Shown here: one piece after another, positions 2,555 to 57,935 of the stretch
Numbering within the stretch: the first letter of the stretch is position 1
Layout: each line of letters starts with the position of its first letter
Source of the DNA: Verrucomicrobiota bacterium
GTDB lineage: Bacteria > Verrucomicrobiota > Verrucomicrobiia > Opitutales > Opitutaceae
Reading direction: 5' to 3'
NCBI GenBank assembly: GCA_030601755.1
Contig: JAUWBF010000012.1
Coordinates: 1-63,017 of the forward strand
Length of the DNA: 63,017 nt
Made by a program: the position numbers and the translations under genes
The notes under the pieces: model-generated
The model's input: only the letters and a program-made list of their open reading frames with translations
Database searches by the model: none
Told to the model about the DNA's origin: nothing

Positions 2555-2570
2555 CCGCCACCCAATCGCT

Positions 2571-2607
2571 CCCGGAAAAGACTAACGTATCTGGTTAGTC
2601 TTTTCCG
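2571..2607 (+). repeat. Palindromic repeat family A, copy 1 (forward)
   Basis: Left arm CCCGGAAAAGACTAAC, loop GTATCTG, right arm GTTAGTCTTTTCCG. The 13-base core arms pair perfectly. The loop sequence sets the orientation, and this copy is forward. It begins 17 bases after the attH-like stop, so it could also end transcription, but the same element also occurs upstream of mutS. Confidence 0.85.
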
Positions 2608-2743
2608 AGTTTTTGATCGGTCAACCAGGCGCGCCAACACGGCTCCGATGCCGAGCAGGCGCATGGTCGGAGCCTGCATTTTCACTCTAAAAATGCGCAT
2701 AGACGGACACTTTTCTCAGGCCGCCGAGCTGAGCGCCGATGCG

Positions 2744-2782
2744 CCGGAAAAAGACTAACCAGATACGTTAGTTTTTTCTGGG
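2744..2782 (-). repeat. Palindromic repeat family A, copy 2 (reverse)
   Basis: Same element in reverse: CCGGAAAAAGACTAAC, loop CAGATAC, then GTTAGTTTTTTCTGG. The arms are less perfect than in copy 1 (an extra A on the left, a T run on the right). With copy 1 it brackets about 136 bases. Confidence 0.85.
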
Positions 2783-2881
2783 AAAAGGGAGGGATTTGAG
2801 GCGACGAGCGGGCAAAGAGGCGGGCGGAGAATTTTTTGGCGGGGCGCGGTGACAAACGGCGCGGGGCGGTTTTGCTCCGGC

Positions 2882-3634
2882 ATGGACGATACTTCTCCCG
2901 TGGTGCTGATCGCCGGCGTGACCGGCGGCATTGGGTCGACGGTGGCGCGCAAGCTGCACGCGGCCGGTTGGCGCGTGGCAGGGTTTGCGCGTGATCTGGG
3001 ACGGCTGGGCGCGCTGTCAGGCGAGTTGAGCGGAGCGGATTTGTCCGCCGCCGAAGCCACCGACCCGGAGGCGGTCGAACGCGTGGTGCGGGATGTCGTG
3101 GAACGTCACGGGCGGCTCGACGCCTACGTGCACGCGGTCGGCACGATTTTGGTGAAAAACGCGCAGCAAACCACCGTCGAGGAATGGCGGAGCACGCTGG
3201 ACGCGAATCTCAACTCGGCGTTCTACGGCCTCAAACACGCGGTGGCGCCGATCCAGCGGCAGGGCGGTTCGCTGGTGTTCGTAAGCTCGGTGGCGGCGCG
3301 CACGGGGCTGGCGTCGCACGAAGCGATCGGCGCGTCGAAGGCGGGCATCGAGGGCTTGGTGCGCTCGGCGGCGGCCAGCTACGCGTCGCGCAACGTGCGG
3401 GTGAACGCGGTCGCTCCGGGTTTGGTGGACACGCCGTTGGCGAGACCATTGCTCGGCAGCGACGCGGCGCGGGCGTTTTCCGAAAAACTGCATCCGCTGG
3501 GTCGGGTCGGACGCCCGGAAAATATCGCCGGCGTGATCGCGTGGCTGCTGTCCGAGGAGGGTTCGTGGGTGACCGGCGAGGTTTGGTCGGTCGACGGCGG
3601 CATGGCCAACGTGCGGCCGCGTCCGAAGGTATGA
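2882..3634 (+). CDS. SDR-family oxidoreductase-like protein lacking the catalytic tyrosine
   Basis: A 250-residue short-chain dehydrogenase/reductase fold protein. The nucleotide-binding motif GVTGGIGS is near residue 10 and the catalytic-region serine is in VFVSSVAAR. The C-terminal WVTGEVWSVDGG is typical of FabG-like members. At the YxxxK active site the sequence reads HEAIGASKAG: lysine is present but tyrosine is replaced by isoleucine. I chose ATG 2882 because the Rossmann strand follows at once; a GTG at 2849 would add an unlikely leader. It stands between a repeat pair and tRNA-Ala with no operon partner. The substrate is unknown, and the missing tyrosine makes ordinary SDR chemistry doubtful. 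Confidence 0.85.
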   Translation: MDDTSPVVLIAGVTGGIGSTVARKLHAAGWRVAGFARDLGRLGALSGELSGADLSAAEATDPEAVERVVRDVVERHGRLDAYVHAVGTILVKNAQQTTVEEWRSTLDANLNSAFYGLKHAVAPIQRQGGSLVFVSSVAARTGLASHEAIGASKAGIEGLVRSAAASYASRNVRVNAVAPGLVDTPLARPLLGSDAARAFSEKLHPLGRVGRPENIAGVIAWLLSEEGSWVTGEVWSVDGGMANVRPRPKV

Positions 3635-10532: not shown

Positions 10533-10656
10533 CCTCCCACTCAGCCGCCCCGCTCCGCCAAACGCCACAAAAACACTCCGCCTTTTCATCTCCATCCTCA
10601 CCGCCTCCCGACCTGCCCGCCCGACCACCGCCCGCTGGTCGCACGCCGCTATCCAC

Positions 10657-10688
10657 GGAAAAACTAACGTATCTGGTTAGTCTTTTTT
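10657..10688 (+). repeat. Palindromic repeat family A, copy 3 (forward)
   Basis: GGAAAAACTAAC, loop GTATCTG, GTTAGTCTTTTTT. Same core and loop as copy 1, with one G lost from the left arm and a longer T run on the right. Confidence 0.85.
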
Positions 10689-10842
10689 CAGCTCAATCCG
10701 CCGAGAATACACCGTGCACCAGCGATGCGAAATATTTCCACAAGACACTCGTCACCAAATGAAAACACCATAAAATCCAAAATAACCACTCGCCGTCTTC
10801 CTCCCTAGACACCCGTTCATCCGCGACAACGCGCCCCAAAAC

Positions 10843-10881
10843 CCCGGAAAAGACTAACCAGATACGTTAGTCTTTTCCGGG
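10843..10881 (-). repeat. Palindromic repeat family A, copy 4 (reverse)
   Basis: The most perfect copy: 16-base arms CCCGGAAAAGACTAAC and GTTAGTCTTTTCCGGG around loop CAGATAC. Reverse orientation, paired with copy 3. It lies 177 bases before the mutS start. Confidence 0.88.
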
Positions 10882-11057
10882 CAGAGAGGACTCTCCGCCG
10901 CAACGATGACGACAACGGTGGCAGCGGCGGTGTCTGCAACACCACGGCCGGCGCGCTGATGCGGACGCGCACGCAGTGGGGCCGGCGGCGGAAAAAATCC
11001 CCGGCGGTTGCAGTTTCTCCGTGCCCTCGACGGCCCGCTTGGTTCAATCCCGCCCCT

Positions 11058-20060: not shown

Positions 20061-20095
20061 CCGGAGTTTGTCACTTAATAAGTGACAAACTCCGG
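20061..20095. promoter_or_regulatory. Palindrome upstream of ruvX, shared core with 57915
   Basis: Arms of 17 bases (CCGGAGTTTGTCACTTA and its complement) around one central A. The core has arms TTGTCACTTA and TAAGTGACAA and occurs unchanged at 57915-57935. It lies about 30 bases before the ruvX start, at a place suited to an operator. There is no T run, so it is not a standard terminator. Function unknown. Confidence 0.6.
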
Positions 20096-57914: not shown

Positions 57915-57935
57915 TTGTCACTTAATAAGTGACAA
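57915..57935. promoter_or_regulatory. 21-bp palindrome in the menD-purL divergent region
   Basis: Arms TTGTCACTTA and TAAGTGACAA around a central A, identical to the core at 20068-20088. It lies 65 bases before menD and 149 before purL, where an operator could serve either gene. Protein unknown. Confidence 0.6.

Follow-up and report, generated by a model that had tools for sequence, protein, structure and literature searches.

Near the start of the 63,017-nucleotide stretch of DNA analysed here (the window; contig JAUWBF010000012.1 of a Verrucomicrobiota bacterium of the Opitutaceae), two hairpins face each other between an attH-like gene and an SDR gene, which raises the question of whether they bound a small mobile element or belong to a dispersed repeat family, the two possibilities offered in an earlier note on this sequence. 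The facing arrangement and its recurrence at a second site were borne out: we found four copies of the core ACTAACGTATCTGGTTAGT in the window with zero mismatches, forming two inverted pairs (2581-2599 on the plus and 2754-2772 on the minus strand; 10663-10681 on the plus and 10853-10871 on the minus strand), whereas 100 dinucleotide-shuffled versions of the window contained none. Copy 1 of this hairpin, family A (2568..2612, +; loop GTATCTG), lies directly 3′ of the AttH/CrtC-like lipocalin gene (1415-2554), and copy 2 (2741..2785, −), in the opposite orientation, precedes the SDR gene (2882-3634). Copies 3 (10650..10694, +) and 4 (10840..10884, −) sit between divergent alpha/beta hydrolase and mutS genes. 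The outer spans of 212 and 225 bases had been given correctly, with core starts 173 and 190 bases apart; the arms GACTAAC/GTTAGTC, described as common to the copies, were exact in two of the four, and the copies starting at 2754 and 10663 have A for G on one arm. Stems extend beyond the core, and in the first pair the arms 2570-2604 and 2749-2783 are 94% mutually complementary. Among the mutS upstream regions of relatives from other genera (8 read of 19), we found no hairpin of at least 10 pairs.

Counting the core across the 3.55-Mb genome to which the window belongs (G000) gave 48 copies when up to 3 mismatches were allowed, split 22 to 26 between the two strands, against 0 matches to a reversed control pattern, so the hairpin is not confined to the four window sites and the idea of a REP-like dispersed family held up. 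A sequence-plus-structure model built from the 48 copies added one weak place (C24:46236, 22.6 bits; 150 of 322 candidates scored). In the 48-row alignment the core was nearly invariant, columns outside the stem were variable and the flanks were unrelated, with a variant, GGTGATT, common to four copies on three contigs. The arms outside the core are variable, with some compensatory change: of 720 cells, 84.4% pair, a figure that was 80.0 (sd 0.9) after shuffling of columns and 34.7 to 53.6 with the partner slid. The arm covariation score was 0.192 versus 0.125 in shuffles (0 of 500 as high), although two of five arm measures, double-change pairs and additional pair types, were not above shuffles. 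Beyond this genome the exact core is uncommon: the degenerate 17-base core at up to one mismatch had a single match in 1 of 37 genomes of relatives, which are of genera other than that of the window, and at two mismatches one match each in 3 of 383 other genomes of the class; an exact scan of GTDB and IMG/VR, from both of which near relatives may be absent, returned none.

We then assessed the arrangement of these copies. Thirty of the 48 form 15 pairs less than 500 bases apart and 18 lie outside pairs; eight pairs are inverted (four →,← and four ←,→) and seven direct, with spacing from 68 to 451. Pair interiors were mostly unrelated, since only 2 of 105 comparisons exceeded z 4, both between pairs holding a CTCT box; this box, TTTCACTCTAAA, lies at 2680..2691 (+) between window copies 1 and 2, and related boxes occur between the members of four other pairs in the genome (five in total). 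CTCTGA and TCAGAG were also seen near hairpins across related hairpin types, in 14 and 22 of 560 flanks of 75 bases versus 4 and 4 of 546 control stretches. In two of the eight inverted pairs (C36, 15831/16036; C137, 973/1076) the arms are reciprocal hybrids of two arm types, which is suggestive of DNA inversion between paired hairpins. With genes predicted by a codon-usage caller and each pair counted once, except for the pair round a protein gene described below, 34 family A sites were classed as 20 co-directional, 5 convergent, 5 divergent, 1 intragenic and 3 unknown. The loop orientation of single copies bore no constant relation to neighbouring genes, both orientations occurring downstream of genes, and an RNA-strand-specific role was therefore set aside.

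The same genome carries two further hairpin families, B and C, each with a protein of its own, and similar hairpins with different stems, here called dialects, recur among 61 genomes of the bacterial family. The GTAAC-type, GTAACNTATTNNGTTAC, was detected in 22 of 61 genomes, one of which had as many as 45 matches, and the control pattern had 0 in all of them; its 16 matches in the window's genome constitute family B. The GTCAA-type, GTCAANTATTNNTTGAC, was found in 11 of 61 genomes, up to 39 copies (one control match, in one genome), and the GTCAC-type, GTCACNTATTNNGTGAC, in 34 of 61, up to 66. Family C comprises 57 GTCAC-type sites, including two hairpins GTCACTTATTAAGTGAC in the window, at 20070..20086 (−), with long perfect arms (GGAGTTTGTCAC...GTGACAAACTCC), and at 57917..57933 (−). 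Most dialects have a TATTA/TATTG centre, whereas that of family A is TATCT/TAGCT, and whole hairpin sets differ between genera. Among 229 unique hairpins of the main dialects, 46 have at least 6 further paired bases, and such extended stems fit a hairpin intermediate but equally fit selection for a hairpin. In other genomes, 46 of the 49 close-pair distances below 90 among the places listed (nine genomes) were 44-47, 53-57 or 64-67, steps of one helical turn that suit a protein on duplex DNA; this spacing rule of ~10 bp was not seen in family A itself. In one genome, G204, all 11 close pairs were inverted.

A recurrent small helix-turn-helix (HTH) protein of about 120-140 aa, belonging to no curated family, is encoded between two hairpin copies. 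It was encoded at seven places in six genomes, comprising six intervals of ~400 bases between hairpins and one border, and an alignment search detected it in 26 of 61 genomes, three times in the window's own. When the seven proteins were compared with Pfam HTH_3 and its relatives and with NCBIfam, all matches fell below the curated cut-off, the sub-threshold ones being mainly to HTH_3, YdaS, HigA and phage repressor models. A scan of GTDB based on one peptide pattern (smaller alignment A2) yielded 53 loci, of which 52 were labelled Opitutia/Opitutaceae-type or Verrucomicrobia and one Akkermansia. The family A protein had no match in phage and plasmid collections, and a pattern scan of viral contigs confirmed no relative. 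In its predicted structure (137 aa, pLDDT 86.8), a long helix at the N terminus is followed by a helical domain, and residues 44-115 aligned with many Cro/CI-type DNA-binding proteins at Z 5-6.4 and with HNF-1A at 7.5, values under 8 that may mean only a common arrangement; Foldseek alone was not significant (best E 0.55). Searches of domain and fold libraries found no enzyme that matched the protein convincingly. As it has no recognisable nuclease, transposase or recombinase domain, the idea that it carries out the copying is speculative. In a kept neighbourhood (L219, L220, L269-L301), the hairpin-flanked HTH gene is accompanied by genes for a class I/II aminotransferase and a dihydrouridine synthase (Dus). 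Among 75 loci compared, an aminotransferase gene lies beside 16 and a Dus gene beside 20, and this conserved neighbourhood points to long vertical inheritance of one HTH gene.

Hairpin and protein were closely associated. Defining a strict hairpin as a perfect six-base stem round an ATT centre, we found that, of 104 protein matches, 72 had one upstream and 62 had one downstream, within ~300 bases, and that none of 149 control windows held one; wherever both sides had one, the two shared the same six-base stem (54 of 54). Removing duplicates left 99 matches, with 67 upstream, 57 downstream and 49 on both sides, again with the same stem in 49 of 49, compared to a mean of 12.2 shared stems and a maximum of 20 in 5000 partner shuffles for these 49 genes. 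The other 50 distinct matches had a hairpin on one side only (26) or on neither (24), some being fragments or cut by contig ends, and six of the 24 (L221, L234, L247, L248, L250 and L254) share a variant hairpin on both sides. Family A is missed by the strict test because of its TATCT/TAGCT centre, and its gene (contig C125) has 32 identical hairpin bases on both sides; the family C gene, on contig C119, has a family C hairpin upstream. Across the 61 genomes, GTAAC-type hairpin and protein occurred together in 17, the hairpin with no detected protein in 5, the protein only in 9 and neither in 30 (Fisher P = 5 × 10−5). All seven genomes with at least 10 GTCAA-type hairpins (G023, G427, G024, G423, G009, G430 and G421) encode a protein of the matching type, with helix DRQ[T/A/Q], or PRQS in G423; in six of them the protein has a GTCAA hairpin on at least one side, and that of G430, which has undetermined bases, has one upstream. 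The ten GTCAC-richest genomes include two exceptions, G022 (86% complete; 30 GTCAC-type copies and only a GTAAC-type protein) and G318 (20 copies, no protein found). These results indicate that the dedicated HTH protein and its hairpin are very probably a cognate pair.

We also assessed whether stem sequence goes with residues of the predicted recognition helix (81-89 in the numbering of the 137-aa family A protein, residue 81 being the first) among 75 proteins less than 95% identical with an assigned stem. Residue 81 was R or K in all 67 proteins whose stem begins with GT and another residue in all 8 with other stems (67:0 vs 0:8, P = 6 × 10−11), while R83 went with C at stem base 5 (62:6 vs 0:7). 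Among the 67 GT-stem proteins, an H or D at residue 85 was associated with C at base 3 (23:4 vs 5:35). When a tree was built with the helix columns left out, the stem label changed 27 times along it, and in independent contrasts the traits nearly always agreed in direction where both differ, the second trait often not differing; with only 1 to 4 pairs on well-supported branches the contrasts were without significance, so shared ancestry may be the cause. Nearest-neighbour prediction of the stem gave 45.5 of 75 correct from seven helix columns and 49 of 75 from the other 103 (chance 0.17), so the helix was no better a predictor than the remainder of the protein. Within the window's genome, the family A and B proteins are 56-57% identical, with A81 accompanying CTAAC and K81 accompanying GTAAC. 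One locus, L277, lies in the aminotransferase/Dus neighbourhood of GTAACC proteins, yet the hairpins on either side of it are GTCACC and its helix is altered.

Some copies lie within genes. The intragenic family A copy (L040:1495-1513, contig C121) lies within the linker of a UvrA-like fusion gene of ~1900 aa, in frame, and has GGTGATT at a position where GGTTAG, the usual sequence, would put a stop codon in frame; this variant is also found outside genes, on contigs C91 and C120. The corresponding UvrA linker of relatives from other genera can hold a perfect hairpin of different sequence: five of 29 other linkers have a dialect hairpin (L074, L078, L082, L087 and L090), three more (L079, L085 and L088) a perfect hairpin of at least 8 pairs with an ATT, AAT or GGATTAA centre, and coordinates place further linker hairpins in G204 (a pair) and G020. 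A few other UvrA linkers hold G+C-rich hairpins of different make-up and most hold none. In six of eight linker cases (G000, G418, G023, G421, G204 and G020) the linker dialect has at least 10 copies in the genome and a member of the protein family was detected; the exceptions are G411, where GTAAC copies number only 4 and the protein was not detected, and G009, whose linker hairpin is its only GTAAC copy. As uvrA is also a known place of REP insertion, described for Opitutus terrae in passages of PMC3733652, the linker may simply tolerate hairpins. By eye, GTAACC-type hairpins were seen in frame at apparently the same place in one protein (LTGKxTGQLQV...MT) of two genera (L209:2654; L153:1589 and 1643), probably old, inherited intragenic copies. 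Similar flanks, apparently coding, were likewise seen by eye round GTAACGTATTAYGTTAC at position 1501 of L124 and L125, from two species of one genus (G421 and G001), and as no protein was detected in G001, hairpins may outlive their protein.

Several known kinds of element were weighed against these observations. Pair orientation, unrelated interiors and the spread of gene contexts exclude both a pair-bounded MITE and a pure terminator. A small transposon or MITE with two inverted hairpins as its ends, the other reading in the earlier note, would suit the window, where both pairs are inverted and similarly spaced, but for family A its likelihood is negligible given the genome-wide mixture of inverted, direct and unpaired copies at widely varying spacing and the interiors that are not shared. 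Intrinsic, bidirectional terminators with a conserved loop would account for the A-rich left and T-rich right arms and for some genes that end within the hairpin, but are highly improbable as the sole explanation, as 5 of 34 sites lie between divergent genes, so the copies are not merely terminators found singly after genes; moreover, both loop orientations follow genes, the core is nearly invariant though a terminator needs only a stem, and a cognate protein exists. Three further candidates, integron attC sites, lox-like recombination sites and LexA operators, were also considered and set aside. Closer in appearance are classical GTAG-type REP elements moved by RAYT, a Y1 HUH transposase. REP/REPIN-RAYT systems share with these hairpins their dispersed, mostly extragenic placement (48 family A copies, with one of 34 sites intragenic), several distinct families per genome, a protein gene per family that adjoins its own repeats at a fixed place, repeat-protein coevolution (as presented in passages of PMC3116915), and doublets of alternating orientation, seen here in G204; dispersed palindromes, doublets and intragenic uvrA copies are also described for Opitutus terrae REPs in the passages of PMC3733652 on them, and Y1_Tnp genes were present in 24 of 25 genomes. 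REPs of this type are defined in that text by a GTAG tetranucleotide, or variant, at one hairpin foot, whereas the 48-row alignment has GTAG at neither foot. Y1 genes occurred in genomes both with and without hairpins, and in G000, G204, G418, G022, G430 and G407 a comparison by eye found no GTAAC hairpin less than 1 kb from one of them (the closest was at 1.8 kb, in G407), and one GTCAC-type hairpin of G204 lies 1.5 kb from a Y1 gene. A transposase elsewhere in the genome, expected earlier for a REP-like family, does exist in the form of three Y1_Tnp genes, but no family A hairpin was found in the surrounding 2.5-4.0 kb (two lie at contig ends, with one side covered), and the HTH protein adjoins the hairpins instead. 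The hairpins thus depart from REP-RAYT membership in two features, the GTAG foot and an adjoining Y1 gene, and that reading is very improbable. They differ further in that the protein is a small HTH without a Y1 HUH domain, in that its helix covaries with the inner stem and in the centres of the dialects, and family A does not show the inverted doublets with conserved spacer of REPINs. Y1 (HUH) transposase-like genes at two contig ends of the window's genome (C72:42 and C125:75175) have, by eye, a GGGGTC-type sequence near their ends and seem to form a repeat system of their own. CGTC-tagged REPs and Rickettsia palindromic elements, in the passages of PMC3733652 that treat them, are likewise palindromes without an associated transposase and with copies in DNA-repair genes; the present hairpins differ in having no CGTC at the hairpin end (48-row alignment) and in their dedicated cognate protein.

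The main rival holds that the hairpins are immobile operators of a chromosomal regulator or nucleoid-type protein, whose site set turns over as the regulator's specificity drifts. Cro/CI (XRE) repressors and restriction-modification controller proteins resemble the present system in the operator-sized 17-bp palindrome and the sites flanking their own gene, and possibly in predicted fold, and a regulator would also agree with one such gene at a fixed place beside aminotransferase and Dus genes, with the helical-turn spacing in other genomes and with the lack of phage or plasmid matches for the family A protein and of confirmed relatives in viral contigs. Here, however, the sites are scattered and number in the tens per genome, and many are drawn out into longer hairpins. 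Promoters are not their main location: they occur between convergent and between co-directional genes and, in some cases, within a gene. Individual copies have extended stems of unrelated sequence that a duplex operator does not need, and GGTGATT is common to copies on three contigs. We consider this reading rather unlikely.

Instead, we regard the pair as probably two members of a REP-like dispersed hairpin system that has a putatively Cro/CI-like DNA-binding protein in place of a transposase. In the P22 and lambda class, a dimer binds a 17-bp palindrome with six-base half-sites, one helix each. The covariation suggests that a dimer of the HTH protein would similarly grip the palindromic core as double-stranded DNA, with one recognition helix per six-base half-site, and the bound protein may act on its own gene, through autoregulation via the flanking sites, and on the dispersed copies. 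That the hairpins multiply is supported by their copy number with unrelated flanks, by the turnover of sets between genera and by the occurrence of GGTGATT on three contigs; whether multiplication depends on the protein we judge evenly balanced. New copies might arise, with less certainty, if the hairpin were copied into other, mostly intergenic places as the bound protein steered host replication or repair enzymes, and a change in the protein's specificity would then bring in a new dispersed set in place of the old, as has been suggested for REP-RAYT. In its fullest form the proposal, which we hold tentatively and at somewhat less than even likelihood, is that a non-catalytic HTH protein drives multiplication of hairpins with a 17-bp core via host enzymes, that helix shifts create dialects replacing the old set, and that many genomes of the bacterial family carry one to several such systems. 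The literature searched held no description of such a system of hairpin and HTH protein.

Dispersed bacterial palindromes would thereby gain a partner other than a transposase, along with a suggested, readable protein-DNA code in which recognition-helix residues go with stem bases. The means by which REP-like repeats spread and the reason for their retention become testable, as does the joint change in specificity of a DNA-binding protein and tens of dispersed sites, for which families A and B, with CTAAC versus GTAAC half-sites, are a natural pair within one genome.
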